From an uncultured Pontibacter sp. (lineage in GTDB: Bacteria; Bacteroidota; Bacteroidia; Cytophagales; Hymenobacteraceae), in the NCBI GenBank assembly GCA_947499125.1, contig CANMMP010000007.1:1-64000 (forward strand): a stretch of DNA of 64,000 nt, written 5' to 3'. The stretch's first letter is position 1; each line of letters starts with the position of its first letter. This document shows, piece after piece, positions 1 through 64,000 of the stretch. Under the pieces are notes generated by a model. The model was not told where the DNA came from. It did no database searches and saw only the letters and a program-made list of their open reading frames with translations. The position numbers and the translations under genes are program-made.

Positions 1-257
1 TTTTTATTATCTGCCGACATTACTTCGAAAAGCAATGCCTTGTGCTATTCTGTCTCAATCAATCTCTCAAAGAACTTCCCTCCCTTCCCCCTCACCTGTC
101 GTGAGACGTCCGGAATGTAGCCCTACTCTTAAGTAGGCAGATCACCTGTTGTGATCCCGTGTTATCAATCTGTTTTTTTCTTTCCTTTCGAACCATCCGT
201 CCGAGTCGTTCGAACCATTCGTCCGATGTTCTCGAACCATCCGTCCGATTGGGAGTG
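1..257 (-). promoter_or_regulatory. probable rRNA operon leader (16S gene off the left edge)
   Basis: No credible protein gene lies here. Read on the minus strand, the stretch follows three tandem promoters and contains GTTCTTTGA at 67-75, the boxA-like antitermination element that precedes 16S rRNA in Bacteroidota. Stem-loops are visible at about 120-136 (CCTACT/AGTAGG arms) and 141-157 (GATCAC/GTGATC arms), as expected of a processed rRNA leader. The 16S gene itself is not in the window, so the assignment is inferred from promoter style and leader motifs. Confidence 0.65.
188..248 (-). repeat. three 17-bp direct repeats with 22-bp period
   Basis: The unit TCGAACCATYCGTCCGA starts at 188, 210 and 232, an exact 22-bp period with one variable base. 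It lies immediately downstream of the most proximal minus-strand promoter (258-287), so it would form the first transcribed bases of the presumed rRNA leader. Three short units with 5-bp spacers do not make a CRISPR array. Confidence 0.8.
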
Positions 258-287
258 CAAAGGTAAGAAGAGTTTTTCTACTTGCAA
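258..287 (-). promoter_or_regulatory. Bacteroidota-type promoter P1 of the presumed rRNA operon
   Basis: On the minus strand a TTG (-33 box, 287-285) is followed after exactly 19 bases by TACCTTTG (-7 box, 265-258). This matches the Bacteroidota primary sigma factor consensus TTG-N19-TAnnTTTG. The bases after the -7 box (CACTCCC) are also found at P3, and CACTCC at P2. Confidence 0.8.
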
Positions 288-383
288 TACCCTGCCACTA
301 AATTTTATTTTTTTTCTTTTCTCTCCAAAGCCAGCTGCTTCTTCAAGTCTTCTCCTCTCCAGGTCTTAGCCCCAAGCGGAGTG

Positions 384-415
384 CAAAGGTAGCAGTTATT
401 TCGCAGCCTTTGCAA
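384..415 (-). promoter_or_regulatory. Bacteroidota-type promoter P2
   Basis: TACCTTTG (-7) at 391-384 is preceded on the minus strand by TTG at 415-413 with a 21-base spacer, slightly long. The flank after the -7 box (CACTCC) is shared with P1 and P3, which suggests promoter duplication. Confidence 0.65.
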
Positions 416-517
416 GCTTTTAGAAAGAATTATTTTTTGGAAGAATGTGAAGTGTTGAGCTTAAACCAACGCCGCTTCCCCTTCTTCTCTTTTACCCCTT
501 CCTGCTGATTGGGAGTG

Positions 518-547
518 CAAAAGTAGTGGATACTTTTTGATTAGCAA
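518..547 (-). promoter_or_regulatory. Bacteroidota-type promoter P3
   Basis: TTG at 547-545 and TACTTTTG at 525-518 on the minus strand are separated by exactly 19 bases. The CACTCCC that follows is identical to P1. This is the most upstream of three tandem promoters directed toward the left edge. The stretch 548-735 shows no gene or clear signal. Confidence 0.78.
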
Positions 548-736
548 TACCTGACCGGAAAGATTTTCCTTTGCCCTAGCTAACGTGCTCACTACCTGCT
601 TTAATATTTTTTATGGAGTTTACTGTGCCTGCCTTTTCCCCTGCCCGAGGGTTGGCTTAGCTACGGCAGCAGAGTCATAACATACCTGGAGTTCCCGAAA
701 GTTCCGGATGGGTAGAAAATAATTACAGGCAAAAGA

Positions 737-760
737 AAAGCCCTGCTTTTGGGGCAGGGA
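737..760 (-). terminator. terminator after the DUF2480 gene
   Basis: The arms CCCTGC and GCAGGG (741-759) form a hairpin, followed on the minus strand by a T-rich tract. It lies about 20 bases past the stop of the gene at 782-1291. Confidence 0.7.
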
Positions 761-781
761 TTTGCGTAAAGTTCTTATAGT

Positions 782-1291
782 TTATACTTTAGGCCTTTTA
801 TATAGAGGCACAGTGCTGCATGGTTCGCCATACATCAGGCTGCTTGTTACGGGTAATAGTTTCCGCATGATCTCGACATATGCATAAGTTGGTACCGGTA
901 TACTTCCGCAACCCTTTACTACTACTTTGGCATCGCGGTATTCTTCCGAATCTATTTTAGAAATTGCTTCCTGCATTAATGCCTGTTCCAATGCCTCCAG
1001 ATCACCGAACACAAAATAGTTTGCATAGTTCTGTAGTTTTGATGCCAGCAGCATGTAAGCCCATGTAGGCACAATGGCATCAACTGAACAAAGTATAGCT
1101 ACGTTCTTGCCTTCGTAAACCGACCAATCGTTTTCCTTAACAAATGCACGGAAGTCTTTTTCACGGAGAATCAATCCTTGAAACAGATTGTCCTTTATAT
1201 CATAAACTACACGCTCGCCTGGGTGCAATAGTTCTTCCAGGTTTATAGTTGTTAGTGCGCTTTGCGCTACTCTGTTTATTAGCTCTGACAT
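782..1291 (-). CDS. DUF2480 family protein
   Basis: This 169-residue soluble protein matches my recollection of DUF2480, a family restricted to Bacteroidota with no known function. It has no signal peptide or membrane segment. Two cysteines sit in the C-terminal half (VKGCGSIP and GEPCSTVP contexts), and a Tyr-rich stretch (LQNYANYFVFG) lies mid-protein. The start is 12 bases after the tsaB stop, so the two genes are probably cotranscribed, and a hairpin terminator follows. The partner suggests nothing specific about function. The family name is recalled, not searched. Confidence 0.8.
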   Translation of the reverse strand: MSELINRVAQSALTTINLEELLHPGERVVYDIKDNLFQGLILREKDFRAFVKENDWSVYEGKNVAILCSVDAIVPTWAYMLLASKLQNYANYFVFGDLEALEQALMQEAISKIDSEEYRDAKVVVKGCGSIPVPTYAYVEIMRKLLPVTSSLMYGEPCSTVPLYKRPKV

Positions 1292-2150: not shown

Positions 2151-3800
2151 TTATTTAACTTTCAGGTAAGAGCTATACTCTTTCTGATCATTAAGTACTC
2201 GCTGTGCGGTCAGGATATCCGGGTCATCATCAAATGAAGCTTCAATGTAGCCTTTCTGCAGATAATAGCGCGAAGCGATCTCGGCTTCCAGCATTTCCTG
2301 GATCTCAGAGCGGAAACGCTGCAGGTCGTTCGACTTGTTATGCGACACCTTTTTGCGAATGGCATCCAGCTCTGTTTTTATATCGTCGTAGTGCTTGCCA
2401 TCTTTTGATTTAGCTGCCAGGTCTTCCAGTTCTTTCTCTACTTTAGTTGTATAAGACACATCCTTATCGGACAGGAAAGCTACGAAGTTCTGGTAAACGG
2501 CATCGCTGATCTGGAAATCTTTGGCAGCCGGTATACTTGGGTTCTCTGCTTTAAACTTATTTGCAAACTCAAACAAATAGCCTTTGGTAACTATAGTTCT
2601 GGCAATTTCTGAAAACTCAGGCTGGGGCACTTCCACATCGGGACTTATGCCACCACCATCATATACTACACGTCCGCCTACCGTTTTGTAAGCCACACGG
2701 AGCGAATCAGGGATGGTACCTACGCTGCCGTCTTCGTTGCGGTGCGAATAATCGATGGCCTGAATACAACGACCACTTGGCGTATAATATTTAGCTGTTG
2801 TTACTTTTAGTTGCGAGTTATAAGATAATGGGCGAGTTGCCTGCACCAGTCCTTTACCAAAAGTGCGTTCCCCAACCAGCACTGCTCTGTCGTAGTCCTG
2901 CATTACGCCGGCTACAATTTCGGCGGCTGACGCACTACGCGAACTGGTAAGCACTACAAGCGGTACCGTTTTATCCAATGGCTCATCAAGTGCTTTATAG
3001 GTTTTATTCCACTCCTTTACTTTACCTTTGGTACTTACAATATCTTTGCCTTTATCAACAAACACATTCGAGATATTAACCGCCTCGTGCAGCAAACCAC
3101 CCGGGTTATCGCGCAGATCAAAGATGATCTTTTTGGCGCCCATCTCCTTTAGTTTCTGTACAGCCTGCTTCACTTCGCGCGAGGCATCCATGGTAAACCC
3201 TGATAACTGGAAATAACCGATATCATTAGAAAGCATACCTATATAAGGTACGTTTTCGACAGTGATATTTGCCCTGACCAGTTGAACCGTGCGGCTTTTG
3301 TTTTGACCATAGCTTTTGATCTCAAGTTTTATAGGTGTGTTCGCCTGGCCCTTCAGTAGTTTGCTTACTTCTGATGATGATTTGCCCGCTACGGCAATAC
3401 CATCGATCTTAACTATTTCGTCGCCAATGGTAAGGCCGGCTTTTTGTGCTGGCGAACCTTCGTAAGGCATCTGGATAACCACTTTGCCATTATGATTGCC
3501 AATACCTGCCCCTATTCCGCCATATTGCCCGGTGGTCATAGTTCGGAAATCCTCAATATCGTCTTCCGGAATATAGTTCGTATATGGATCCAGCGACTTC
3601 AGCATGGCATCGATACCCGTTCGCATCATTAGCGCGGGAGGCACATCGTCCACGTAATAGGTATTAACTTCTTTAAAAAGGGTAGCGAATACATCGAGGT
3701 TCTTAGCGATCTCGAAATAACGATCGGAATTAGATTTGAAAGAAAACAAACCTAAACCCAGACCAGCTACCAATATGCCGGCAAGATATTTCTTATACAT
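2151..3800 (-). CDS. S41 family C-terminal processing peptidase (CtpA/Prc type)
   Basis: This 549-residue exported serine protease has an N-terminal signal or anchor (about residues 4-22). A PDZ domain at roughly 95-170 (GGIGAGIG, GSPAQKAGL, GDEIVKIDG) is followed by the tail-specific protease core. The core shows the catalytic serine motif SRSASAAE and the downstream lysine in TFGKGLVQ. The C-terminal 120 residues are charged and helical, as in longer Bacteroidota S41 proteins. Such enzymes cleave envelope proteins from the C-terminus. It starts 29 bases after rnpA stops and is probably transcribed with rpmH-rnpA. Confidence 0.92.
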   Translation of the reverse strand: MYKKYLAGILVAGLGLGLFSFKSNSDRYFEIAKNLDVFATLFKEVNTYYVDDVPPALMMRTGIDAMLKSLDPYTNYIPEDDIEDFRTMTTGQYGGIGAGIGNHNGKVVIQMPYEGSPAQKAGLTIGDEIVKIDGIAVAGKSSSEVSKLLKGQANTPIKLEIKSYGQNKSRTVQLVRANITVENVPYIGMLSNDIGYFQLSGFTMDASREVKQAVQKLKEMGAKKIIFDLRDNPGGLLHEAVNISNVFVDKGKDIVSTKGKVKEWNKTYKALDEPLDKTVPLVVLTSSRSASAAEIVAGVMQDYDRAVLVGERTFGKGLVQATRPLSYNSQLKVTTAKYYTPSGRCIQAIDYSHRNEDGSVGTIPDSLRVAYKTVGGRVVYDGGGISPDVEVPQPEFSEIARTIVTKGYLFEFANKFKAENPSIPAAKDFQISDAVYQNFVAFLSDKDVSYTTKVEKELEDLAAKSKDGKHYDDIKTELDAIRKKVSHNKSNDLQRFRSEIQEMLEAEIASRYYLQKGYIEASFDDDPDILTAQRVLNDQKEYSSYLKVK

Positions 3801-4637: not shown

Positions 4638-6365
4638 ATGATCTCTTACCACTTAGGTTATACTTCGGCACTGTCGCACTTTGTAGATATAAGCATAACG
4701 ATAACCGGCAACACACAGCAGCAGTTATACTTACAGTTGCCTGCCTGGCGCCCCGGCCGCTACGAACTACAAAACTTTGCCCAGAAACTGAGTCAGGTTA
4801 CTGCTGATGCCAATGGGCAAACTATAGCTATAAATAAAGTAACCAAAGACCGCTGGCTGGTTGAAGCTGATGGAGCTGAAAGTATAATTATAACCTATAG
4901 CTTTTATGCGCGACAGATGGATGCCGGCGGTTCGTGGCTGGATGAGCAGATGCTGTATATAAACCCGGTAAATTGCCTGATGGCTGTGGAAGGACTTGAA
5001 CACGAACCCTGCGAAGTAACGATGGCTATACCTGAAGACTGGCAAATCGCTTGCGGATTACCGGAAATTAGAAAACACACCTTACTCGCAGCTAACTTTG
5101 ATGAGTTAGTAGACAGCCCGTTTATTGCCAGTGGCTCTTTGCAACACAACAGCTATAGTTTAGCCGGTACAACTTTCCATATCTGGTTCCAGGGCGATTG
5201 CAAACCCGACTGGCAGAAAATTATAAATGACTTTAAAGCCTTTACCAAAGCGCAACTGGAAGTATTTGGCGACTTCCCGGTGCCGGAGTACCATTACCTG
5301 AATATTATACTTCCGTATCGCACCTATCATGGCGTAGAGCATAGCCATTCTACAGTAATCACACTTGGACCGGGGGAACTGCTGATGTCGCCGGCTTTGT
5401 ACAATGAGTTTCTGGGAGTGAGTTCGCATGAGCTTTTCCACACGTGGAACATAAAGAGAATCCGGCCACAGGAAATGCTGCCCTATAACTTTGCACAGGA
5501 AAATTACTTTAAAACCGGTTATGTGGTAGAAGGCATTACCACGTACTACGGCGATTACATGCTGGCCAGGTCTGGGGTTTTTACAGCCCAACAGTACTTC
5601 GATGAACTCAACACTACCCTGCAACGCTACTTTGCAGACTATGGCCGCCATAACTTATCGGTAGCTGATTCATCTTTCGACCTGTGGCTGGATGGCTATA
5701 AACCCGGCATACCTGACCGCAAAGTTTCCATCTATATAAAAGGTGCGCTAACTGCTTTGTTATTAGACCTCGAGTTACGGAAAGCTACCAACAACAAGGC
5801 AACTATGGATAGCCTGATGCGGGAACTATGGCAGCAATTTGGAAAGAAAACTATAGGTTATACTGATCAGAATTATGCAAACCTGGTAGATAAAATTGCC
5901 AGACAGTCCTTTAGCCTATACTTCGACAACTATATAGACGGTACCACATTTATAGAACCTGCTTTAGATAAAGCCTTGAATTATGTGGGCTGCACACTAA
6001 AGCAACACGAGAATACTTTGCTTTATGAGAGCCGCTTTGGCTTTAAGGTAACACAGGAGCAAACTATAAAAGTTACTGCCATAGCACCGGAGTCGCCGAC
6101 TTATGATACCCTAAGTATAGATGATGAACTGGTTGCCCTGAACGGCCGCAAACTGGAACAGAATCTGCAGCACTTATTACAGCAACATGCCTCTGATGAA
6201 ACTATAACACTCACACTTTTCAGGGAAAAGCAATTACGTGAAGTAACGTTTACGCCAACCGGTCAGGCATATTATCCAAAGTATACTATAGAGAAACGGT
6301 CTGGTGCGACAGCAGCAGAAAAGGCCAACTATAAACTATGGTTGCACCAAGACTTTGAGGCATAA
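4638..6365 (+). CDS. M61 family (glycyl aminopeptidase-type) metallopeptidase
   Basis: This 575-residue protein has the M61 layout: an N-terminal beta domain, a gluzincin catalytic domain and a C-terminal PDZ-like domain. The zinc motif HELFH is at residues 264-268 within SSHELFHTWN, and the third ligand is likely Glu298 in VVEGITTYY. Residues from about 465 look like a PDZ domain (IAPESPTYDTLSIDDELVALNG). No signal peptide is evident at this start, so it may be cytoplasmic. It diverges from rpmH. The ATG at 4638 is the first in frame, and the protein N-terminus fits the family. Substrate is unknown; related enzymes prefer N-terminal Gly or Ala. Confidence 0.92.
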   Translation: MISYHLGYTSALSHFVDISITITGNTQQQLYLQLPAWRPGRYELQNFAQKLSQVTADANGQTIAINKVTKDRWLVEADGAESIIITYSFYARQMDAGGSWLDEQMLYINPVNCLMAVEGLEHEPCEVTMAIPEDWQIACGLPEIRKHTLLAANFDELVDSPFIASGSLQHNSYSLAGTTFHIWFQGDCKPDWQKIINDFKAFTKAQLEVFGDFPVPEYHYLNIILPYRTYHGVEHSHSTVITLGPGELLMSPALYNEFLGVSSHELFHTWNIKRIRPQEMLPYNFAQENYFKTGYVVEGITTYYGDYMLARSGVFTAQQYFDELNTTLQRYFADYGRHNLSVADSSFDLWLDGYKPGIPDRKVSIYIKGALTALLLDLELRKATNNKATMDSLMRELWQQFGKKTIGYTDQNYANLVDKIARQSFSLYFDNYIDGTTFIEPALDKALNYVGCTLKQHENTLLYESRFGFKVTQEQTIKVTAIAPESPTYDTLSIDDELVALNGRKLEQNLQHLLQQHASDETITLTLFREKQLREVTFTPTGQAYYPKYTIEKRSGATAAEKANYKLWLHQDFEA

Positions 6366-6370
6366 AAAAA

Positions 6371-8091: not shown

Positions 8092-8245
8092 ACCCACCCC
8101 TACCCCTCCGAGGAGGGGTATTTCCTGCAATACCTGATTCCCCTCTTGGGAGGGGCAGGGGTGGGTTAATTTTGCCGAGGTGGATTCGCAGCTCAACCGG
8201 GCCAGAGGCACAACTATAGTTCGACACGAGCGTGGAAGCTCGCGC
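8092..8245. repeat. composite palindromic repeat, copy 1
   Basis: The element begins ACCCACCCCTACCCCTCC and has CCCCTC/GAGGGG palindromes around a short loop containing GCAATACC, then GGGGTGGGTTAATTT. A tail with CCAGAGGC and finally GCTCGCGC ends at 8245. The same order of blocks recurs in the same orientation at 51345-51479. No coding sequence is in it. From the tRNA to the next gene (7926-8256) nothing else is evident. Confidence 0.8.
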
Positions 8246-15338: not shown

Positions 15339-16157
15339 TTAGGCGGGTAGATCTTTTAATAAGGTGGTCCGTTCCTCTTCGCTCCACTTCTGTTTTAGCG
15401 GAATAATGTTGGCTGCATCTACAAACAAAGGCGGCTTGGCACCTACAGTTAACCGGATAAAATGATGGTTAAAAACTCCTAATGCCACATGTACCGGTTT
15501 AATATCGCCATGTTCCAGGCTTCGTTTTTTACTGCGCAAGTATAGATCCCAGTCGGCAGCCTGCAGGCGTTCATCCCAAAGGCCAACCTTATCCAGGGCG
15601 CTGCGCTTCATTATCACCGAATTGCCTAAAAAGCCTTCTATTACATCGGTGCCATACTTCTGATAACGCTGCTGGTTAAACTTCTCCCAGTTGCCATACA
15701 TCAGCCACACCATAAACCGGAAACTGAGGTCATTCTTAGCTACAAAGCCTACAAAGTTTTTAATTGCCTTCCAGCGTCGGTGTAGTTTTTTGGTAGCTTC
15801 GGGAGTTTCAGCGCGCTCTATGCCGCTTGGCGTTGCAATTTCAAGTCCATGCGCATCCATCGCCTCCAGCAGCTTCTTATCCCAGTGCGGGGCAACTATA
15901 ATATCATTGTTCAGGAAAGCGAACACATCATACTTTGCCGCTTTTATGCCCTGGTTCTGGCAATAAGGGTAAGAGTAGTTCTGGCTGTTTTCGATAACAG
16001 TAGCGCCTATACTTTTATAGTACTCGCGGCTACCGTCGGTGGAGTTGTTATCAACTATAATAAGCTCATACGGATGATAAGTATACTTTTGAAGGTGCTC
16101 TACAAAAATTTTATTTATAACCAGCTGGTTATGCACAGCCACAATTATACTTATCAT
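15339..16157 (-). CDS. family 2 glycosyltransferase
   Basis: This 272-residue GT-A fold enzyme starts MISIIVAVHNQLVINKIF and shows LIIVDNNSTDGSREY (nucleotide-binding Asp) near residue 38. FAFLNNDIIVAP near residue 81 supplies the acidic pair that normally binds metal and sugar nucleotide. No membrane helices are seen. The length and FLGNSVIMKRSALDKVGLWDE motif match glycan-chain transferases. Donor and acceptor cannot be inferred. It lies among surface polysaccharide genes but is transcribed opposite to them. Confidence 0.9.
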   Translation of the reverse strand: MISIIVAVHNQLVINKIFVEHLQKYTYHPYELIIVDNNSTDGSREYYKSIGATVIENSQNYSYPYCQNQGIKAAKYDVFAFLNNDIIVAPHWDKKLLEAMDAHGLEIATPSGIERAETPEATKKLHRRWKAIKNFVGFVAKNDLSFRFMVWLMYGNWEKFNQQRYQKYGTDVIEGFLGNSVIMKRSALDKVGLWDERLQAADWDLYLRSKKRSLEHGDIKPVHVALGVFNHHFIRLTVGAKPPLFVDAANIIPLKQKWSEEERTTLLKDLPA

Positions 16158-31925: not shown

Positions 31926-32050
31926 ACCCCACCCCTGCCCTCCCCTAAAAACAGGAGAGGGTGTTAAAATTTTAAACTAAAAGATTAAATAATTTATTAA
32001 GAGCGAAAAATTCCCCCTCCTGTTTTTTAGGAGGGGGGGTAGGGGGAGGT
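31926..32050. repeat. inverted-repeat element, family B
   Basis: The left arm (31926-31961) carries ACCCCTGCCCTCCCC and AAAAACAGGAGAGGG. The right arm (32013-32050) is its approximate complement with CCCCCTCCTG and AGGGGGAGGT. A 51-base AT-rich centre contains no gene. It fills most of the 332-base gap between uvrA and tpiA (31860-32192). A partial copy occurs at 15251-15284. Confidence 0.75.
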
Positions 32051-32192: not shown

Positions 32193-35000
32193 CTATAGTT
32201 TATCCTTCAGGAAACGGGCGGTGTGGTTATCTTCCAGCTTTGCCATTTCTTCCGGGGTACCTTCAAACAACAGATGCCCACCATTTATACCGCCTTCCGG
32301 ACCAAGGTCTATGATCCAGTCTGCAGATTTGATGATATCCATGTTGTGCTCAATGATAACGACCGTGTTGCCGTTTTCTATTAAAGCATTTATAGATGTA
32401 AGCAGTTTGCTGATGTCGTGGAAGTGCAGACCGGTACTTGGCTCATCGAAAATAAACAGGATATTCTCGTGATGCGGCTGTATACCTTTCGTCAGGAACG
32501 ATGCCAGTTTTACGCGCTGTGCTTCGCCACCCGATAAGGTATTACTCGACTGCCCTAATCTAATATAACCCAAACCAACATCGTTCAGCGGTCTTAGCTT
32601 TTCAATGATCTTGGGCTGCTCTGCAAAAAAGGTAATACTGTCGGCAATGGTCATGTCCAGAACTTCGGAAATGCTCTTCTCTTTATATTTAATATCGAGC
32701 ACGTCTTGTTTAAAGCGTTGGCCATGGCAGCTTTCGCAGGTCAGGTAGATGTCGGCCATAAACTGCATCTCGATCTTTACCTGCCCTTCGCCCTGGCAAA
32801 CTTCGCAACGGCCACCTTCAATGTTAAACGAGAAATGCGACGGCTTAAAACCACGGGCTTTCGCCAATGGCTGGTCTGAATAAAGTGCACGGATCGCGTC
32901 GTAAGCTTTTACATAAGTTACCGGGTTAGAGCGCGACGATTTACCGATCGGGTTCTGGTCCACAAACTCCACGTGTTGAATTTTATTATAGTCGCCAGCC
33001 AGTTTATCGAATTTACCAGTTGACTCGGAGGAAGAACCGTGCAGCTTTTGCATGGCCGGAGCCAGTATTTTCTTGATCAGTGTAGATTTACCCGAGCCAC
33101 TTACACCCGTAACCACCGTCATGACATTCAGCGGAACCTTTACATTCAGGTTTTTAAGGTTGTTCTCCCGGGCTCCGATCAATTCAATGCTATTGCGCCA
33201 CTTACGGCGCTGCGCAGGCACCGGAACTTCCATTTTTCCGTTCAGGTAGCGGGCAGTGTAGGTATCAGCTTTCTTCGTCAGTTCGTCCAGTGTACCCTGG
33301 AACATCAGGTTACCACCACCCGAACCAGCTTCGGGCCCAATATCAATGAGCTGGTCAGCGGCGCGCATCATTTCTTCTTCGTGCTCAACAACTATAACCG
33401 TGTTCCCCATTTTCTGTAACGAGCGCAACACCCCGATCAATTGTTCAGAGTCTTTTGGGTGCAGGCCTATACTTGGCTCATCTAAAATATACATAGAACC
33501 CACGAGCGCACTGCCCAACGATGTTGCCAGGTTTATACGTTGGCTCTCGCCACCCGAAAGCGTATTAGAAAGTCGGTTTAGGGTTAGATAACCAAGCCCT
33601 ACACGTTCCAGGTAACCTAAGCGATTAGCTACTTCCGTTACCAATCGGTCGGCAACTTTCTCTTCGTGCTCGGTTAGTTCAAGTTTCTGGAAAAACGGCA
33701 ACACCTGAGTAATGGGCATCAACACCAAATCGGTTATACTTTTGCCGCTTACTTTTACATAGCTGGCATCTTTACGTAAGCGCGAGCCTTTGCAATCGGG
33801 GCAAGTAGTGCGGCCACGGTAGCGCGACAACATAACGCGGTACTGTATTTTGTGAGTTTGTGCCTGTATATGTTTAAAGAAGTCGTTCAGACCATCAAAA
33901 AACTTATTTCCTTTCCAAAGCAATTCCTGTTCAGCTTCTGATAGTTCGTTGTAAGGGCGGTGGATCGGGAAATCGAAGCGGATACCGTTTTTTACAAGTG
34001 GCTGCAACCACTCATTCATCTTATCGCTTCGCCATGGCGCAATAGCCCCTTCGTAAACGGTCAGGCTTTTATCCGGAATAACCAGGTCAGGATCTATACC
34101 TAACACTGAACCAAATCCTTCGCAGGTCTGGCAGGCGCCGTATGGGTTGTTAAAGCTGAAGAAGTTAACAGACGGCTCTTCAAACACCATTCCGTCCAGC
34201 TCAAACTTATCCGAGAAAACCCGCTCTTCGCCATCGCCATACTTTACCCGGCACTCGCCATGTCCTTCAAAAAAGGCTGTCTGCACCGAGTCGGCTATTC
34301 TAAACTGCAGGTCTTCATCCGATTTATAGATAACAGCACGATCGATCAGGATGTATACTTCCTTGCCAAGCTTCGGACTTTTCTGCTCCAGCAGTTCTTC
34401 AATAAAGTAAACCGTACCATCAGCATATATTCTGGAGTAGCCTTTTTGCAGGAGCAGGTCCAGTTCTTTTGCCAGGGAGCGATCTTTGTGCTGTAGTAGC
34501 GGCGCCAGTATCATAACCCGAGCTTCATCTTCCAGCGAGAAAATAAAATCCACCACATCAGCTACTGAATCTTTCCGCACCACCTCACCAGAAACAGGCG
34601 AATAAGTTTTGCCGATTCTGGCGTAAAGCAGTTTCAGGTAATCGTAGATCTCAGTGCTGGTACCAACCGTGGAGCGGTTATTTTTGATACTTACCTTTTG
34701 TTCAATGGCAATTGCCGGACTGATGCCTTTTATGTAATCGACATCCGGTTTATCCATACGGCCCAGGAACTGGCGGGCGTAGGAGCTAAGGCTTTCCACA
34801 TACATGCGCTGCCCTTCGGCATAAAGTGTATCAAAAGCCAGCGAAGATTTTCCGGAACCTGAAAGACCGGTTACAACTATAAACTTATTCCGTGGCAGGG
34901 CCACGCTCAGGTTTTTCAGGTTATGTACGCGCGCGCCTTTTATAATAATGTTCTGGCGAGCGTCAAGCTCATCAATGTTATAGTCGGGAGTTATTGCCAT
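32193..35000 (-). CDS. uvrA: excinuclease ABC subunit A
   Basis: UvrA recognises bulky DNA lesions as a dimer and loads UvrB in nucleotide excision repair. At 935 residues it has two ABC ATPase modules: Walker [13 protein letters not shown] near residue 46 and [12 protein letters not shown] near 640. The two signatures are [10 protein letters not shown] and [10 protein letters not shown]. Zinc-binding cysteine pairs occur as CPDCKGSRL and CEVCQGEGQ with CESCHG. Length matches the E. coli protein. It is monocistronic. Confidence 0.97.
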
Positions 35001-36515: not shown

Positions 36516-36583
36516 TTTGGTTACAAACTGTAAGTATACTTTAAGCGTATTACCACCTGTACACTAACCAAACTATACCAACT

Positions 36584-41816: not shown

Positions 41817-43166
41817 ATGCTTTACCTTATACTTAAACTACTTTACAAAGCCGGCTTAGGAGTATTTTTCAGGAAACTGGAAGTACGCAACGCACACCTT
41901 ATACCTAAAACAGGCCCGCTACTTGTAGTTTCGAATCACCCCAATACTTTTATGGACCCGATCGTGATAGCGGCACAGCTTGACCAGCCAATGTATTTTA
42001 TCTCTAAAAGCACTGTGTTCGGTTCGAAGTTACAAAACTGGTTGCTCCGCCAAATGCATCTTATACCTATTAACCGCCGCGAAGACAACCCCGAAGCATC
42101 TGTAAGCAACGACGAAGCTTTTTCGACCAGCTTTAAAGCGCTGCATGAGGGCAAAACCATACTTATTTTTCCGGAGGGGAACAGCTTTAACCAGCGCCGT
42201 TTGCGCAAAATTAAAACCGGCACGGCCCGCATAGCCTTAGGTGCTGCCGCAGAAAAAAACTATACTTCTGATATCAGCATACTGCCTATAGGTTTAAATT
42301 ACACAGACCCTAGCAGTTTCAGGAGCGACGTGTTCGTAAATGTTGGCAAACCTATACTGGTGGCAGCTTACCAGGAAAAATATGCCCAGGATCAAATACT
42401 GACTGTACAGGAATTAACGGAGGAGATACGCACCCGGTTAGAGAAACTGATCATACATACCCCTACCGACGAAGACGACGCACTTACCAGGCAGGTAGCA
42501 GCCATTTATATGGATAAGCTAGGCCCAGCAGTTTTACCTACTGCCCTGCCCCACGAACAGGATTTTATACTTACAAAGGGCATCATCAAAAGTATAAACT
42601 ACTACAGCCAGACCGAGCCCGAACGTATAGCAACTATAAAACAGGAGCTCGATAATTACGGACTGCAACTAAAACGCCTTAACCTCCCCGACCCTGTGCT
42701 GGACAAAAACAAAAATGAGGTACTGCTGCAAAGTATAACTGGGCTGGTATACTTGCTGGTTGGTCTTCCGGTGTATGTGTTTGGTTTATTGCACAACTAC
42801 CTGCCGTATATTATACCTTCTAAAATAGCGCGGGCGTTTACCAAAGAGGAAGAGTGGCATGCCCCTATTATGCTGACAACCGGCATTTTTACATTCCCGA
42901 TATTTTATGGCCTCGAGATATGGCTGGCGCACGAGTGGCTGCAGCTAAATGGCCTGAAGCTGCTACTGTATGCGTTAAGTTTACCTCTTAGTGGTTTTTT
43001 AACGCTTCATTATTGGAAAACCCTTTGCCAAACACAGAGCCACTGGCTGTTACTGCGGCTTTTTTATAACAAGAAACATATCGTGGACAGGGTGCTCGAG
43101 CAACGCAACTATATTATCAGCTTACTCGAAAAAGCGCAGCGCGATTACCTGCAAAATGCCCGCTAA
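41817..43166 (+). CDS. 1-acyl-glycerol-3-phosphate acyltransferase family protein
   Basis: This 449-residue protein contains the PlsC/LPLAT fold: SNHPNTFMDPIV (acyl-acceptor His and Asp) near residue 40 and ILIFPEGNSF near residue 117. In this subgroup the His and Asp are spaced H-x5-D rather than the H-x4-D of classical PlsC, which I associate with the Gpt2/Sct1-like branch. The C-terminus has two to three hydrophobic segments near residues 307-415. It likely acylates a lysolipid or glycerol phosphate at the inner membrane. Substrate is not readable. Confidence 0.87.
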   Translation: MLYLILKLLYKAGLGVFFRKLEVRNAHLIPKTGPLLVVSNHPNTFMDPIVIAAQLDQPMYFISKSTVFGSKLQNWLLRQMHLIPINRREDNPEASVSNDEAFSTSFKALHEGKTILIFPEGNSFNQRRLRKIKTGTARIALGAAAEKNYTSDISILPIGLNYTDPSSFRSDVFVNVGKPILVAAYQEKYAQDQILTVQELTEEIRTRLEKLIIHTPTDEDDALTRQVAAIYMDKLGPAVLPTALPHEQDFILTKGIIKSINYYSQTEPERIATIKQELDNYGLQLKRLNLPDPVLDKNKNEVLLQSITGLVYLLVGLPVYVFGLLHNYLPYIIPSKIARAFTKEEEWHAPIMLTTGIFTFPIFYGLEIWLAHEWLQLNGLKLLLYALSLPLSGFLTLHYWKTLCQTQSHWLLLRLFYNKKHIVDRVLEQRNYIISLLEKAQRDYLQNAR

Positions 43167-43248
43167 AACTATAAACTTATACTTTACCGGCTGATATGCG
43201 TAAAAACACCTGACCAAGCCTACAGGCTAATTTTAAAAAAGTATAAAA

Positions 43249-43467
43249 ATGAAAAAGATATCTTTAAACTTACTGGCAGCCGGTTTTGTAACTATAGGTT
43301 TGCTGGCATCGTGCTCCTCCGAAACCACAACAGGTGTAGACACAAACGAGACGCAAACGGAAACCGACATGCAGAATGACATGGACATGGATACAGACAC
43401 GGCAGGTATGCACTCCGACACCAGCATGCAACACATGGACCATAACCAAACAGAACAACAGCAATAG
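43249..43467 (+). CDS. small acidic Met/Asp/Thr-rich lipoprotein
   Basis: This 72-residue protein has a lipoprotein signal (MKKISLNLLAAGFVTIGLLASC, lipobox LASC, Cys22). The tail is rich in Asp, Met, Thr and Gln with DMDMD and MQHMDH elements. Met and His clusters could bind soft metal such as copper, but this is speculation. A related short lipoprotein lies at 61104-61331. A perfect 16-bp terminator follows. Confidence 0.7.
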   Translation: MKKISLNLLAAGFVTIGLLASCSSETTTGVDTNETQTETDMQNDMDMDTDTAGMHSDTSMQHMDHNQTEQQQ

Positions 43468-43486
43468 CCAATATTAAAAGTATAAA

Positions 43487-43529
43487 CTATAAAAGCCCGG
43501 CACCTGTAGCAGATGCCGGGCTTTTATAG
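43487..43529. terminator. bidirectional terminator, 16-bp perfect stem
   Basis: CTATAAAAGCCCGGCA and its exact complement enclose an 11-base loop, between the convergent lipoprotein gene and the 147-residue gene. Confidence 0.88.
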
Positions 43530-51344: not shown

Positions 51345-51479
51345 ACCCACCCCTGCCCCTCCCAAGAGGGGATTTTTCGCAATACCCAATTCCCCTCTTG
51401 GGAGGGGTTAGGGGTGGGTTAATTTATACTTGGACCAGAGGCCCCTGCTATAAATCGTCACGAACGAAGATGCTCGCGC
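51345..51479. repeat. composite palindromic repeat, copy 2
   Basis: Same block order and orientation as 8092-8245: ACCCACCCCTGCCCCTCC, CCCCTC/GAGGGG palindromes around GCAATACC, GGGGTGGGTTAATTT, CCAGAGGC, and a final GCTCGCGC. It lies between odhB and lpdA. Identity to copy 1 is partial over the tail. Confidence 0.8.
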
Positions 51480-53230: not shown

Positions 53231-55990
53231 TTAAACAGCGAATGCTTTCTCCATTAACTCTTGCTGCTCTTTTGCGTGTATCTTTAGGTAACCTGTTGCA
53301 GGCGATGCACTTGCTTTACGGGCTATTACATCCGTGATGCTATTACGCATGATACGCAGTATATACATCCAGCCACCCATATTTTCCGGCTCTTCCTGTA
53401 CCCAGTATACTTTTGCATTCTTATACTTGGCAAGTTCTGCTTCTAACTGCACTTTCGGGAATGGCGCCAGCTGCTCCATACGAATCAGGGCTACATCTTT
53501 GCGCTTGTTCTTCTGCTGCTCTTCCAGCAGGTCGAAGTATACTTTACCCCAGCACAGCAATACTTTCTTCACCGATTTAGCTGAAGCATACGAATCACCG
53601 ATCACTTCTCTGAAACCACCAGATGTAAAGTCCTCGATAGGAGAAACTACAGCCGGATGACGCAGCAACGACTTAGGCGACATATTGATAGCTGGCTTGC
53701 GGAATGGCAAGGCCAACTGGCGACGCATAAAGTGGAACAGGTTAGCAGGCGTTGTAATGTAAGTTACGAACATGTTGTTTTCGGCTGCTAACTGCAGGAA
53801 TCTTTCAGGGCGTGCGTTTGAGTGCTCTGGTCCCTGGCCTTCGTAACCATGTGGCAACAGCATTACCAAACCGTTCATGCGCTGCCACTTCGATTCTGTA
53901 GCTGAGATGAACTGGTCGATCATGACCTGGGCACCATTGGCAAAGTCACCGAACTGGGCTTCCCAGATAACCAATGCATTTGGGTTAGCCATAGCATAGC
54001 CAAATTCAAACCCTAATACGCCATACTCAGAAAGCAGGGAATTGTAGATCTCAAACGAGCCCTGGCCTTCGGCCATGTGGTTCAGGTTATTATATGGGGC
54101 ACTTGTTACAGCATCGTGCAATACGGCATGGCGATGCGAGAATGTACCACGCTGCACATCCTGACCTGTGAAACGCACGATCCTACCATCCAGCAGAACC
54201 GAACCATAGGCAAGTAATTCACCGGCTGCCCAGTTAAGCTGCTTTGTTTCAAAGAACATATCCTTACGCTCTTTTATCAGCTTCTCTATCTGTTTTAATG
54301 GTTTAAAGCCTTGCGGTAAGGTAGTAAGCGCTTTACCAACAGCATCAACAGCATCTGCAGATATACCTGTTTCCGGAGACTGGTTAAAATCTTCGGGTTT
54401 AGAACGGCGCAGGCTTTGCCATTCTTTCTCCATTTGCTGGTAGTTGTATGGCAATGGCTTTTGCTTTACCATGTCCAGGCGGTCCTGCAACAAGTTGCGG
54501 AACTCCTTGTCCATAGACTTGGCCAGCTCAGCATCTATCTCTCCACGGTTGATCAGGTCTTTGTTATAAACTTCGCGTGGGTTAGCGTGCTTTGATATCA
54601 GGTTGTATAGTTGTGGCTGCGTAAATTTCGGCTCATCCGACTCGTTGTGGCCATGACGACGGTAGCACACCATATCTATAAAGATATCGTTGTTATAGCG
54701 CTGGCGATATTCCATGGACATACGCATGGCAAATACCACCGCTTCCGGGTCGTCGCCGTTTACGTGAAGTACAGGGGCATCAATTATCTTGGCAACATCT
54801 GTACTATAAATGGATGAACGGGCATCTTCAAAATCGGTAGTAAAGCCAACCTGGTTGTTTATCACGAAATGGATCGTACCACCTGTGTTGTAACCATCGA
54901 GGTTAGCCATTTGGGTAACTTCGTAAACTACACCCTGTCCCGCAACAGCAGCATCACCGTGTATCAGTATCGGCAATACTTTATCAATGTCCTTATCGTA
55001 CATGCAATCGATCTTGGCACGCACAAAACCCTCTACTACCGGGTTCACCGCCTCTAAGTGCGATGGGTTAGGGGCCAGTTTCAGATTTACTTTTTTACCT
55101 GACGGCGTTACTACTTCTGAAGAGTAACCCATGTGGTATTTAACGTCACCGTCACCCATGGTAAGGTCCGGAACGGCTGTACCTTCAAATTCGGAGAAGA
55201 TCTGCTCATAGGTTTTGCCCATGATGTTGGCCAGTACGTTCAGGCGGCCACGGTGTGCCATACCTATCACTACTTCCTCAACACCCAGTTCAGATGCTTT
55301 ATCTATAGCCGCATCAAGGGCAGGTATAGTTGTTTCGCCACCTTCCAGTGAGAAACGTTTCTGGCCTAAGAACTTCGTATGCAGGAAGTTCTCGAACACA
55401 ACTGCTTCATTCAGCTTGGAAAGGATGCGTTTTTTATATTCGATCCCCGGATTAAAGTTCAGTGAATCCTGCTCTACTTTCTTTTTGAACCACTCCAGTA
55501 CTTCCGGATCGCGGATGTACATGTATTCAAAACCGATAGAGCCAGTGTATATCTTTTTAAGAGCTGCTTCAATATCGCGAAGCGTAGCTGGCCCGATGCC
55601 AATTATATCACCAACCTGGAAAACGGTATCCAGGTCAGCATCGGTAAGGCCAAAGTCAGCCAGGTCTAATCTTGCTTTGCGGTCTTTGCGGGCACGCACC
55701 GGGTTGGTGTTAGAGCGCAGGTGGCCGCGTGTGCGGTAAGCGTGGATCAGGTTACGAACGGCTACTTCTTTATCAGAATCGCCTGAGGTGGCAACCATAC
55801 CTTTTGCAGGAGCAGGTGCAGTACCTTCTGTTACTTCGCTGCCATTTTCGCCGTAAGCAGTAGCAAAGTCATAACCTTCAAAAAACTTGCGCCATCCGGC
55901 ATCAACCGACTCCGGATCTTGCTGATAAGCTTTGTAAAGCCCATCAATATAATCGCCGTGCGCGTTAGCGATGTAAGTATATTTATCCAT
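53231..55990 (-). CDS. odhA: 2-oxoglutarate dehydrogenase E1
   Basis: This thiamine diphosphate-dependent E1o subunit decarboxylates 2-oxoglutarate in the TCA cycle. The 919-residue protein has the E1o N-terminal peptide (YIDGLYKAYQQDPESVDAGW), the IGMAHRGRLNVLANI region, the ThDP-binding GDAAVAGQGVVYE motif and the C-terminal transketolase-like half (GQDVQRGTFSHRHAVLHD). An ATG nine codons earlier (56017) lies inside the promoter -7 box, so 55990 is the start. It is first in the odhA-odhB-lpdA set. Confidence 0.95.
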   Translation of the reverse strand: MDKYTYIANAHGDYIDGLYKAYQQDPESVDAGWRKFFEGYDFATAYGENGSEVTEGTAPAPAKGMVATSGDSDKEVAVRNLIHAYRTRGHLRSNTNPVRARKDRKARLDLADFGLTDADLDTVFQVGDIIGIGPATLRDIEAALKKIYTGSIGFEYMYIRDPEVLEWFKKKVEQDSLNFNPGIEYKKRILSKLNEAVVFENFLHTKFLGQKRFSLEGGETTIPALDAAIDKASELGVEEVVIGMAHRGRLNVLANIMGKTYEQIFSEFEGTAVPDLTMGDGDVKYHMGYSSEVVTPSGKKVNLKLAPNPSHLEAVNPVVEGFVRAKIDCMYDKDIDKVLPILIHGDAAVAGQGVVYEVTQMANLDGYNTGGTIHFVINNQVGFTTDFEDARSSIYSTDVAKIIDAPVLHVNGDDPEAVVFAMRMSMEYRQRYNNDIFIDMVCYRRHGHNESDEPKFTQPQLYNLISKHANPREVYNKDLINRGEIDAELAKSMDKEFRNLLQDRLDMVKQKPLPYNYQQMEKEWQSLRRSKPEDFNQSPETGISADAVDAVGKALTTLPQGFKPLKQIEKLIKERKDMFFETKQLNWAAGELLAYGSVLLDGRIVRFTGQDVQRGTFSHRHAVLHDAVTSAPYNNLNHMAEGQGSFEIYNSLLSEYGVLGFEFGYAMANPNALVIWEAQFGDFANGAQVMIDQFISATESKWQRMNGLVMLLPHGYEGQGPEHSNARPERFLQLAAENNMFVTYITTPANLFHFMRRQLALPFRKPAINMSPKSLLRHPAVVSPIEDFTSGGFREVIGDSYASAKSVKKVLLCWGKVYFDLLEEQQKNKRKDVALIRMEQLAPFPKVQLEAELAKYKNAKVYWVQEEPENMGGWMYILRIMRNSITDVIARKASASPATGYLKIHAKEQQELMEKAFAV

Positions 55991-56014
55991 AGGATTACTC
56001 TCTTTGTATGCAGG

Positions 56015-56043
56015 CAAAGTTAGAAGTATTATTCATAAAACAA
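56015..56043 (-). promoter_or_regulatory. promoter of odhA
   Basis: TTG at 56043-56041 and TAACTTTG at 56022-56015 on the minus strand, 18-base spacer. Transcription would start about 18 bases before the ATG at 55990. Confidence 0.6.
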
Positions 56044-56504
56044 ATTACCTATAATCGCATAAGCAAATATGCCTGTTTCACAACCACATATCTTTATTCT
56101 ATACTTATATGGTAGTGGTAAGTTATACTAAAACCGTTTAATATTGCTTATTATACTTTAAATCAAATACCTTCTTCATTTCAGCCTCTTTATATTCCCA
56201 AAAAGAAAAATAATTAAAGCTGGCACTCAGCAACTATAAATCTGCACTTAAGACAGAACCATAAGTATTGCCTGTTTTACTTTCCATATCAACCTATACT
56301 ATAGATTGTTACTTTTAGCAACTTAAAAATCAAGCAAAGAGACTTTAAAGCAACTTTTTACAGCTTTACTCTCTCTAAAACCGGTTAAAAGTAATGTTAC
56401 TTTTAACCGAATTCTTTCCTGTTATATATACTATGATAGAATTAGCTTTATACAAGTACTTCAGCTTTTTCCATTAACTGAGGTATACGCTAATTATATC
56501 AGCT
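56044..56504. other. AT-rich intergenic region with a 13-bp inverted repeat
   Basis: No gene is seen in this 461-base stretch between divergent odhA and the WYL-like gene. An inverted repeat at 56382-56409 has CGGTTAAAAGTAA and its exact complement around TG. The half-site GTTACTTTTA recurs near 56309-56318. The repeat could be an operator or a structured leader. Confidence 0.5.
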
Positions 56505-61103: not shown

Positions 61104-61331
61104 ATGAAAAAGATATGGAAATCAGCCTTTGTAGTTTTTGCTTTAACAGCATTTACAGCATGTGGCGGCAACGACAATACAACTGAAACAGAAACCATGG
61201 AACAGGTAGAAACTGACATGGATACTGAAATGGATATGGATATTGAAACGGATACTACTACAGTTCAGGACACCACAATTAATGATGGTGTAGCTGATGA
61301 GATTCCGGAAGAAACTCCACCTATCCAGTAA
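61104..61331 (+). CDS. small acidic Asp/Thr/Met-rich lipoprotein
   Basis: This 75-residue protein has a lipoprotein signal (MKKIWKSAFVVFALTAFTAC, Cys20). An acidic tail follows (TETETMEQVETDMDTEMDMD through EIPEETPPIQ). It resembles the lipoprotein at 43249-43467 in signal, size and the DMDMD element, and is probably its paralogue. It is a single-gene unit with a terminator. Function is unknown. Confidence 0.7.
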   Translation: MKKIWKSAFVVFALTAFTACGGNDNTTETETMEQVETDMDTEMDMDIETDTTTVQDTTINDGVADEIPEETPPIQ

Positions 61332-61357
61332 TAATTTTATTTAATCCTGACTAATCG

Positions 61358-61388
61358 AAAGTCTCTGTCCGTAAAAGACAGAGACTTT
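61358..61388 (+). terminator. terminator after the acidic lipoprotein gene
   Basis: AAAGTCTCTGTC and GACAGAGACTTT are 12-bp perfect arms with a 7-base loop, then TTGTTTTATTT. Confidence 0.85.
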
Positions 61389-61453
61389 TGTTTTATTTAT
61401 ACTTTGCTGCCCTATTTGTGAGGTACAATGTATAAACTTGTTAAATTTAGGGA

Positions 61454-62626
61454 ATGGAATTTAAAACGTTACCCAACAATACTATTACGATTAAACTGGT
61501 AGATAGCAATCAGGCATTGCAGGAGGCTATCACAGACCTCAGCCAGAGCACTGAACTTGCCCTCGACCTGGAGTTTGACCAAAACCGGTATACTTACGGC
61601 TTTAACCTGTGCCTGATCCAGATCACGGCTGGTAATGGCTTGTGTTATATTATCGATCCGTTTGAGCTGGAGAGCCTGCAGCCTTTCTTTGACCTGATGG
61701 AAAATAAGTCAGTCACAAAGATCATCCATCACTCCAACAACGACATATTATTACTTGATAAACTGGGTTGCCGGATACGGAATGTACTTGATACAGATGT
61801 GGCCGCAAAAATTCTCAACTATGAGCGCTCATCGCTGGCGACCGTGCTGAAAGAAGAATTTGATATCGAAATAGATAAATCTCAGCAATCAAGCAACTGG
61901 AATAAACGACCGCTTACAGAGCAGCAGCTACAATATGCCGCTATAGATGTGGTGTATCTGCACCAGGTAAAAGATAAACTGGTAACTGAACTCACTAACC
62001 TGGGCCGTCTGCACTGGCTCGAGGAAGAGAACCAGTTACTTGAAAACCTGCGCTACACAGAAACAGAGAACCCGCACCTTCGGCTTCGCAATGCATCGAG
62101 GCTCACCTATTACGAGCAGTTTATACTTAAGTCGCTGTTCATTTTCCGCGAGAATATAGGTAAGACCCTGAATAAACCAGCTCCTTATATAATACCTAAC
62201 GATGCACTTGTAGAATTAGCTACTAACCCGGACGTAGACCTGCATGAATGGCTTAACCATACGCGCGGTATACATGGCAGGCTAAAGAGCCCTTCGTATG
62301 AAAGGCGCCTGAGCGAAGCTGTATATATGGCCAAACAAGCTGCAAAAGAGCAAAGTATATCGCACGAATATGCCGGCAGCAACTATAAACGGCCTTTCCG
62401 TACTGCCGAAACTGAAAAGCGGAAAGATGAACTTACACAAGTACAGGCGGCTATTGTTCATAAGTATGGCGAGTTTGCGGGCCGCCTTATTATAAACCAA
62501 AGTCTGATTAACGAATACAGTTATACTGGCAAACTGCGTTGCACAAAAGTATATGCAACCCGGATAGTACTAGAAACTGCTGATGCACTGGAGATAAAAT
62601 TACCAGAACCAGAAGTTATAGTATAA
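61454..62626 (+). CDS. ribonuclease D-like 3'-5' exonuclease with HRDC domain
   Basis: This 390-residue protein has the DEDD exonuclease motifs: LDLEFD (Asp38 and Glu40), IIHHSNNDILLLDKLG and YAAIDVVYLHQ (Tyr and Asp of motif III). An HRDC domain follows near residues 220-290 (YYEQFILKSLFIFRENIGKTLNKP). A C-terminal domain of unclear type ends the protein. RNase D trims tRNA and other structured RNA 3' ends. It stands 44 bases before aspA with no terminator between, so both may be cotranscribed. Confidence 0.9.
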   Translation: MEFKTLPNNTITIKLVDSNQALQEAITDLSQSTELALDLEFDQNRYTYGFNLCLIQITAGNGLCYIIDPFELESLQPFFDLMENKSVTKIIHHSNNDILLLDKLGCRIRNVLDTDVAAKILNYERSSLATVLKEEFDIEIDKSQQSSNWNKRPLTEQQLQYAAIDVVYLHQVKDKLVTELTNLGRLHWLEEENQLLENLRYTETENPHLRLRNASRLTYYEQFILKSLFIFRENIGKTLNKPAPYIIPNDALVELATNPDVDLHEWLNHTRGIHGRLKSPSYERRLSEAVYMAKQAAKEQSISHEYAGSNYKRPFRTAETEKRKDELTQVQAAIVHKYGEFAGRLIINQSLINEYSYTGKLRCTKVYATRIVLETADALEIKLPEPEVIV

Positions 62627-62669
62627 GCCTGCACTAAATAGAACTCAACAACTGAACTGGAAACGATCC

Positions 62670-64000
62670 ATGAGCAATTTCAGAATAGAACATGATTTTC
62701 TGGGAGAGAAAGAGATACCCAATGAGGCATATTACGGTATCCAAACCCTTCGCGCCCTCGAGAACTTTAATATAACCTGTATCCCGATATCTAAAGAGCC
62801 GCTGCTGATACAAGCTTTCGGATATGTAAAAAAAGCTGCTGCTCTGACTAACCAGGAATGTGGCGTACTGAAGCCTGAAAAAGCAGACGCAATCTGTAAG
62901 GCTTGTGACGAACTGATTGCCGGTAAGTATGTCGATCAGTTTGTAACAGACATGATACAGGGAGGCGCAGGAACTTCGGTGAATATGAATGTTAACGAAG
63001 TGATCGCGAACATAGGTCTGGAGATGTTGGGGTACGCAAAAGGCGACTATGACCACCTCCACCCAAATAACCACGTAAACTTCTCCCAGTCGACCAACGA
63101 TGCCTATCCTACTGCATTCAGATTAGCCTTATACATTAAGATCGGCCACTTTATAGAAGCACTCTCCAAACTCGAAAAAGCTTTTGACGCGAAGTCGGAG
63201 GAGTTTAAGACTGTGTTAAAAATGGGTCGAACGCAACTACAGGATGCTGTCCCTATGACATTGGGAGCGGAATTCCATGGCTTCTCCACCACCATAAAAG
63301 AAGATATACAACGCCTGGAAGAAGCCCGCCTATTGATATGTGAAATTAACATGGGTGCAACAGCAATTGGAACATCTATTAACGCACCTGAAGGTTATCC
63401 TCAAATTGTAACTAAGTATTTAAAAGACCTGACAGGTATACCGGTAGTTTTAGCTGAAGACCTGATTGAAGCGACCTGTGATACTGGAGCCTATGTGCAG
63501 TTGTCGGGTATACTTAAGCGAACAGCAGTTAAAGTATCCAAGATCTGTAATGATCTGCGATTATTGTCATCAGGGCCAAGAGCCGGCATAAACGAAATAA
63601 ACTTACCTCGTATGCAGCCGGGTTCATCTATAATGCCTGGTAAAGTAAATCCAGTTATTCCGGAGGTGGTGAATCAGACAGCTTATTATGTGATCGGCGC
63701 AGATGTAACTATAACTATGGCAGCTGAGGCAGGGCAGCTACAACTAAATGTAATGGAGCCAGTTATTGCTTTTAGTTTATTCTCGTCCCTGAGCTATATG
63801 ACGAACGCATGCCACACACTAACAGATAAATGTGTAGTAGGAATAACTGCTAATGAGGAGATCTGTAAGAATATGGTGATGAACAGTATTGGCATTGTTA
63901 CCTCACTAAATCCTATACTTGGATATGAAGCCGTATCTTCCATAGCCAAAGAAGCACTGAACACAGGTAAGTCTGTACATCAGATTACAGTTCTGGAAAG
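62670..64000 (+). CDS. aspA: aspartate ammonia-lyase, 3' end beyond window
   Basis: AspA reversibly converts aspartate to fumarate and ammonia. The frame opens at 62670 and stays open to the edge (443 codons), about 25 short of full length. It has FRIEHDFLGEKEIPNEAYYG, the SS-loop signature GSSIMPGKVNP (near residue 318), and GAGTSVNMNVNEVIAN. The family also includes fumarase C and adenylosuccinate lyase, but the N-terminal EHDFLGEKEIP and GLEMLGY segments favour AspA. Confidence 0.92.
   Translation, partial: MSNFRIEHDFLGEKEIPNEAYYGIQTLRALENFNITCIPISKEPLLIQAFGYVKKAAALTNQECGVLKPEKADAICKACDELIAGKYVDQFVTDMIQGGAGTSVNMNVNEVIANIGLEMLGYAKGDYDHLHPNNHVNFSQSTNDAYPTAFRLALYIKIGHFIEALSKLEKAFDAKSEEFKTVLKMGRTQLQDAVPMTLGAEFHGFSTTIKEDIQRLEEARLLICEINMGATAIGTSINAPEGYPQIVTKYLKDLTGIPVVLAEDLIEATCDTGAYVQLSGILKRTAVKVSKICNDLRLLSSGPRAGINEINLPRMQPGSSIMPGKVNPVIPEVVNQTAYYVIGADVTITMAAEAGQLQLNVMEPVIAFSLFSSLSYMTNACHTLTDKCVVGITANEEICKNMVMNSIGIVTSLNPILGYEAVSSIAKEALNTGKSVHQITVLE

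Follow-up and report, generated by a model that had tools for sequence, protein, structure and literature searches.

A short chromosome-wide word with lineage dialects in Pontibacter: a possible signal for self-DNA recognition independent of type IV pili

Why do two complementary pairs of hexamers, ACTATA/TATAGT and AGTATA/TATACT, recur all along a 64,000-bp stretch of a Pontibacter genome (the window in what follows), within genes as well as between them? A preliminary description of the window had counted 17 of them in the gene of an M61 aminopeptidase alone, a count that proved exact (7 + 1 + 3 + 6), and had offered an uptake or recombination signal, a site for a nucleoid protein or a mutational bias as readings. 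The comparisons presented here, all made on sequences, indicate that the hexamers belong to one chromosome-wide recognition sequence that is conserved by selection or by a selection-like force or drive. An uptake signal and a site for a chromosome protein both remain as readings of it, while a mutational bias is hard to keep and a strongly oriented recombination signal, of the type of Chi or of the FtsK-orienting polar sequences (KOPS), is not seen. New beyond that description are the lineage specificity of the word and its dialects.

On the plus strand of the window ACTATA occurs 90 times, TATAGT 72, AGTATA 65 and TATACT 113, i.e. 340 occurrences altogether, where the two pairs are expected 91 times (45.5 + 45.5) from base composition alone (order 0), 80 times (39.9 + 39.9) from a Markov model of order 1, 103 times (39.5 + 63.6) from one of order 2 and 165 times (79.5 + 85.5) from one of order 3. 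The reported excess was thus real and had been understated, and neither the trinucleotide model (order 2), which would have made it purely compositional, nor the third-order model suggested as a check predicts more than about half of what is seen. At order 4 (132.2 + 134.3) a small excess remains, because the 5-mers of such a model already hold most of the word. In coding DNA (genes being the longest open reading frames, ORFs, called in this analysis rather than annotated ones) the hexamers number 235, against 83.8 +/- 7.9 in synonymous-codon shuffles (maximum 102 in 200 shuffles). When they are extended, the true unit turns out to be AA[C/G]TATA[A/G] (AASTATAR), of 7–8 bp with faint preferences just beyond, so that the earlier account was right about the enrichment of the hexamers but not about the extent of the word. 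In the 52 predicted ORFs AASTATAR occurs 138 times, compared with 17.4 +/- 3.8 in the shuffles (maximum 28 of 200), and it exceeds expectation in every one of the six strand/frame classes. Composition and codon choice, the latter already discounted for a single frame in the preliminary description, are therefore rejected as the cause of the excess, since both low-order Markov models and synonymous shuffles underpredict the counts.

There are 213 copies of AASTATAR on the two strands of the window, with 2.5 copies per kb in ORFs, whose A+T content is 54%, and 7.4 per kb in the DNA separating ORFs, where it is 63%, and 12,651 (6383 + 6268) in the whole genome of 3.98 Mb, where the reversed pattern is found 325 + 317 times. 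The strand symmetry claimed for the word is thus nearly perfect genome-wide, although within the window AGTATA is more frequent on the minus strand (113 copies, against 65 on the plus strand). The word is also sharp. In 880 kb of four genomes that use its AAG spelling, AAGTATAA was found 1163 times, with 29.5 expected at order 2 (39-fold), and any single change at positions 1–6 leaves an enrichment of 0.8–4.6-fold; position 7 tolerates A>G (10.5-fold) and position 8 takes G (17-fold) and C (8.6-fold) but hardly T (2.0-fold). Another spelling, AGGTATAG (30-fold), is similarly sharp, and a third, AACTATAG (56-fold), is somewhat more tolerant at positions 1 and 2 (up to 7.9-fold). If these counts reflect a balance of mutation and selection, a 20-fold step would translate into a scaled coefficient of roughly 3 at each site.

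How widespread is the word? Across 50 Pontibacter genomes AASTATAR occurs 276 to 6974 times per strand, whereas elsewhere in the family (154 genomes from five other genera) it reaches at most about 1.2 times the count of the reversed pattern, and it is no higher in 14 genomes from 14 other families of the order. Many Pontibacter genomes with low counts use another word. In tables of 7-mers 20 of the 50 favour AAGTATA(A), five AACTATA(G), two both of these (the source genome and G046), 12 and, weakly, G060 AGGTATA(G), and one (G058) ATATATA(A), while nine are poor in all words (observed/expected ratio, O/E, 1.0–3.4); 41 genomes thus carry the word in some spelling, these being AAGTATAA, AACTATAG(TT), AGGTATAG and, in one genome, ATATATAA. 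The classes intergrade, G048 and G063 too holding two spellings, and a synonymous-shuffle test of each genome returned the same words, weakly so for ATATATA in G058. At some loci of other genera this test indicated different words, two of which whole-genome counts bear out in Hymenobacter (see below). The AAC dialect is often palindromic: AACTATAGTT occurs 38–42 times in 60 kb in each of three genomes, where 0.1–0.2 copies are expected. For the comparison of dialects, up to 20 kb of orthologous DNA surrounding uvrA, a gene found in all 50 genomes, was used, that of the source genome being taken from the window. In a uvrA tree (11 of its 49 internal branches weakly supported, bootstrap not converged), the 12 AGG genomes form one clade (100/100), the five AAC genomes form another with the source genome and G046 (100/99), and the deepest branches are word-poor. 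The strength of the word is not significantly correlated with genome size (rho -0.22, p 0.13, 50 genomes); the nine word-poor genomes are larger (4.9–6.5 Mb, against a median of 4.6 Mb in the rest; p 2e-5, without correction for kinship and in a grouping chosen after the counts had been seen).

Conservation of the sites between orthologues, another check that had been proposed, was assessed in genomes aligned by BLASTN, with two partner genomes for each of three references in the comparison of codon positions and non-coding DNA. Divergence is lower at the sites than in their flanks, by a factor of up to about three, while control words hardly differ from theirs. Between G017 and G009, for example, the core of AGGTATAG has diverged by 0.033 and its flanks by 0.143 and 0.127, compared with 0.118 and flanks of 0.121 and 0.119 for permuted controls. 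For AGGTATA in the same pair, divergence inside and in the flanks is 0.084 and 0.274 at third codon positions (control words 0.258 and 0.271) and 0.067 and 0.165 in non-coding DNA (control 0.162 and 0.147). Core/flank ratios at third codon positions are 0.31 and 0.43 for AGG, 0.66 and 0.73 for AAG and 0.43 and 0.60 for AAC (controls 0.95–1.14), those in non-coding DNA are 0.35–0.77 (controls 0.79–1.11), and first and second codon positions are less constrained (0.29–1.40; controls 0.78–1.33). Amino-acid constraint does not explain this pattern, because third codon positions and non-coding DNA are conserved as well. The weakest case, from G042 (AAC) to G000 (mixed), has a non-coding ratio of 0.77 with a control of 0.79, and AACTATAG sites of G042 are hardly conserved in the mixed genome G046 (core 0.222, flanks 0.267 and 0.234).

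Site loss, conditioned on the agreement of other species, gave a mixed outcome. AAGTATAA (39/219 versus 170/658), AGGTATA (74/530 versus 1086/3153) and AGGTATAG (39/261 versus 769/1891) were lost less often than controls and AAGTATA only slightly less (72/408 versus 308/1476), but AAGTATAG was lost more often (15/39 versus 242/1030), which does not favour constraint. Per-species loss ratios over the 20-kb loci range widely (G022 1.35, G009 0.18) and exceed 1 in nine of 19 AAG and two of 12 AGG species; they count few independent sites from many references, and to require conservation in 60% of the other species selects control words that are themselves constrained. Gains from words with one mismatch run at 1.6–3.5 times the control rate, on small numbers (7–14 gains per word). 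Spelling, for its part, does change in place. In 45 of the 50 genomes (G002, G007, G058, G060 and G063 being omitted), 1722 comparisons of AACTATA sites in the five AAC species with AAG species gave AAGTATA 253 times and the same spelling 114 times; for AGGTATA sites in AGG species, 4068 comparisons gave AAGTATA 432 times and no change 393 times. All of these are pairwise comparisons, many of one site, set against no control substitution rate. Positions persist, then, while their spelling changes, although switching alone is no proof of a fixed function for each position because an old site is the easiest one-step source of a new one.

These findings would be most simply explained by a reader of drifting specificity that has the chromosome as its target. 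Copies of AA[G/C]TATA[A/G] would be kept at thousands of chromosomal sites by weak selection or drive, a putative DNA-binding factor would read them, and as its specificity shifts the spelling of the genome would follow, giving AAGTATAA, AACTATAG(TT), AGGTATAG and ATATATAA in Pontibacter and GGGTAGG and GGGCTAGC in Hymenobacter; word and reader probably co-evolve. As for the process, the word may be a signal for the uptake of self DNA in a natural transformation that is independent of type IV pili, as in Riemerella, a reading to which we give a probability of roughly 45%. Fragments bearing the word would be taken up and recombined preferentially, and being imported more often, alleles with the word would replace those without it. 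This reading is preferred because of parallels with the DNA uptake sequences (DUS) of Neisseriaceae and the uptake signal sequences (USS) of Pasteurellaceae and because the genus retains comEC and dprA. The wider picture, in which self-DNA recognition independent of type IV pili exists in the Hymenobacteraceae with at least six dialects in two genera, and a reader at the surface or on the chromosome has co-evolved with about ten thousand sites and switched specificity several times within a genus, is put forward tentatively, at somewhat less than even odds. To our knowledge, genome-wide recognition words are otherwise found in Neisseriaceae, Pasteurellaceae and cyanobacteria, and a search of the open-licence literature in PubMed Central (PMC; uptake sequences, over-represented words, competence, Bacteroidetes, Pontibacter, Hymenobacter) showed nothing on this word or its dialects among the papers listed, which is weak evidence. 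A genus with several spellings, nine word-poor genomes and some genomes with two spellings at once (the source genome and G046) is a natural experiment on how such words originate, switch and decay, and the co-variation of dialects offers a route to the reader; a true uptake signal would mean that bacteria lacking type IV pili undergo natural transformation in a sequence-specific way.

The likeness to DUS and USS lies in strong over-representation, in thousands of copies on both strands within and between genes and in a higher density near gene ends. In stretches of 12 Pontibacter genomes that density is highest where a short gap separates convergent genes (15.8 per kb) and within 20 bp downstream of stop codons (13.1 per kb), which are positions relative to genes and not terminators as such, at whose feet the preliminary description had often placed the hexamers; relative to permuted control words, enrichment is 14-fold in ORFs, 14–19-fold in divergent and tandem gaps and 22–35-fold in convergent ones. 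Poverty in the word on second replicons, seen in Pontibacter only, may be counted as a further likeness, as may the presence of the core transformation genes comEC and dprA, although these are also found in word-poor Pontibacter. The Pontibacter word is shorter (7–8 bp rather than 9–12 bp) and several times denser than DUS and USS, and it occurs in bacteria without a type IV pilus ATPase. Lineage dialects are shared by both (excerpts from PMC3630211).

A ComEC-like match is present in all 50 genomes, none above the NCBI cut-off, and DprA is above its cut-off in 48. In the same two genomes, G022 and G009, both genes are fragmented and flanked by long open frames, and ORF content is ordinary at the uvrA locus of both and over 140 kb of G009. 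Among the other 48, DprA is free of stops and ComEC occupies a frame of 702 aa or more, G018 (561 aa) being the one exception. Since the chance of such a coincidence is 1 in 1225 if the breaks are independent, it suggests that the two genes serve a shared pathway that is under selection in the rest. Precedents for transformation of this kind come from Riemerella: in the excerpted text of PMC7965970 R. columbina is described as favouring its own DNA, and in that of PMC8459023 R. anatipestifer transforms with ComEC, DprA, ComF and RecA plus four proteins unlike known competence machinery.

Several observations weigh against an uptake signal. No ATPase of type IV pili or type II secretion was found in any of the 50 genomes, the matches to PF00437 being short, partial and no higher than 25.9 bits, with three of them just over the cut-off (pilins were not searched), and the machine that carries the known DUS/USS receptors thus seems absent. 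ComEC and DprA are intact in word-poor genomes too, and their presence was accordingly rejected as what determines which genomes hold the word. Sites are not lost any more quickly in G009, where both genes are broken, than in its sister (17/169 and 13/165, compared with 266/955 and 201/890 for control words), but the breakage could be of recent date. DUF5689, which is found in one competence protein of Riemerella, has a patchy occurrence (22 of 50) that does not track the word. Sites are clustered (coefficient of variation of spacing 1.10–1.44 observed, 1.01–1.08 expected), whereas DUS and USS are described as evenly spaced (excerpts from PMC1939737). Finally, when strand was assigned by GC skew, as the suggested check of replication bias required, no strong orientation emerged, but the word leans to the G-rich strand by 957 to 705 in eight of eight AAG- or AGG-type genomes (mostly syntenic stretches with the same genes, and hence not independent), and uptake does not predict such a lean.

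The main rival, which we hold to be rather unlikely though the best of the alternatives, is a site for a nucleoid or chromosome-architecture protein, which would need sites every few hundred bases, kept by selection, and a specificity that drifts between lineages. The missing pilus ATPase speaks for it, as do the strongly enriched palindrome AACTATAGTT, the clusters and the overlapping copies at spacings of 3, 6 and 7 bp, which resemble cooperative binding, and the presence of the word at all 11 loci spread over the chromosome of G021 (AAGTATA 417 versus 17.8 expected, O/E 10–36 each). A cytoplasmic protein should, however, also act on large resident replicons, and these are word-poor: at eight loci on second contigs (74–204 kb, taken as plasmids by their size) of G020, G021 and G001, AAGTATA occurs 41 times with 12.6 expected (O/E 0.7–6.2 each), while one chromosomal locus each of G020 and G001 has an O/E of 14.6 and 19.5. 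The objection holds unless these replicons are recent arrivals. Those chromosomal genes of G013 for which the syntenic stretches offer no aligned counterpart have a density of sites similar to that of the others (1.70 versus 1.72 per kb), but such counterparts may sit elsewhere in the genomes, and G017 has only two such genes. Moreover, the near all-or-none specificity over 7 bp is unusual among abundant nucleoid proteins.

An improbable alternative is that the word, like the highly iterated palindrome HIP1 of cyanobacteria, is tied to a DNA methyltransferase, as a modified site for repair, segregation or self-marking. HIP words are likewise dense, are replaced by other words in some lineages and have been linked to methyltransferases, although excerpts from the same source leave the function of HIP1 open (PMC4390886). 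The Pontibacter word belongs to another phylum and has a different sequence, with no palindromic octamer around GATC; the commonest spelling is not a palindrome, neither AAGTATAA nor AGGTATAG is an octamer of that kind, and the often palindromic AAC dialect lacks GATC. No link to a methyltransferase was seen in the one family tested, PF01555, which is patchy (31 of 50 genomes) and missing from four of the five AAC genomes. A Chi-like signal for a RecBCD/AddAB recombination nuclease seems slightly less probable again. Chi and KOPS are short chromosome-wide words, and like a Chi word the present one is lineage-specific, poor on second replicons and leans to the G-rich strand, as noted above and over the 11 loci of one chromosome (226 to 191, p 0.10). 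The lean is small, however, and absent from three AAC genomes (156 to 161), a palindromic form exists, and no strong orientation was seen in the loci and stretches judged by GC skew. Its O/E of 30–55 lies far above that of known Chi words, and its over-representation exceeds that of KOPS as well. That the word is generated by mutation in particular contexts, or by a biased form of repair, is very improbable because its gains exceed the control rate by only a small factor, the word is so sharp that mutation would have to be raised at every position, its sites are conserved at silent positions, replicons of the same cell are word-poor and related species differ in spelling.

In Hymenobacter, 14 of 120 whole genomes have more than 1000 copies of GGGTAGG on each strand (at most 3590), compared with 181–835 in the other 106, while GGGCTAGC is found 1668–1916 times in three other genomes and 9–489 times in the rest, 17 of the 120 being thus rich in one of the two words tested. 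The features of the window, together with the broken comEC and dprA loci, are collected in Table 1.

Table 1. Coordinates of the features discussed (positions in the window unless a contig is given)
Feature	Position	Strand	Remarks
AASTATAR copies	1..64000	both	138 entirely inside predicted ORFs, 71 entirely outside, 4 straddling an ORF edge
M61 glycyl-aminopeptidase gene	4638..6365	+	17 hexamers; 12 AASTATAR sites in both orientations; Pfam PF05299/PF17899
Densest 1-kb stretch (250-bp steps)	42501..43500		10 AASTATAR sites
Largest gap without sites	53421..56099		2678 bp; nearly coincides with the 2-oxoglutarate dehydrogenase E1 gene (53231-56017, minus; Pfam)
Palindromic form AACTATAGTT	2589..2598		three further copies start at 8212, 49145 and 51487
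Palindromic form AAGTATACTT	16079..16088		two further copies start at 36532 and 53535
uvrA-like gene	32193..35000	-	935 aa; Pfam UvrA_inter + UvrA_DNA-bind; anchor of the 50-genome comparison, not part of the word phenomenon
Broken comEC/dprA loci, G022	C1:2769000-2773500 and C1:4157000-4160500		L225, L226
Broken comEC/dprA loci, G009	C76:159000-163000 and C13:16000-19500		L227, L228

The regulator of the SOS response (LexA) of Pontibacter actiniarum binds CTAA-N5-TTAG according to excerpts from PMC8565304, and its operator was rejected as the word since it is another sequence. Some minor observations were also made. In G058 the abundant word is ATATATAA / TTATATATAA in DNA of 54% G+C (60 kb read). 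Single loci of about 20 kb from other Cytophagales have over-abundant words of their own, ACGTAGC/GAACGTA in Spirosoma/Fibrisoma (L040, L064), GCAATGC in Dyadobacter (L023, L076) and AAATATT in Adhaeribacter (L003), which are weaker leads; those of another Cytophagales locus, L025, overlap into one longer repeat. An ORF of 1599 aa in the window (24986-29785, minus) has no Pfam match at E 0.001. The window also contains a G+C-rich intergenic repeat, in which an inverted core, CCCCTCTTGGGAG, lies beside CCACCCCTGCCC at 8139-8164; at 51347-51407 the core occurs twice in opposite orientations with CCACCCCTGCCC once, and at 31929-31940 CCACCCCTGCCC stands alone, without the core.

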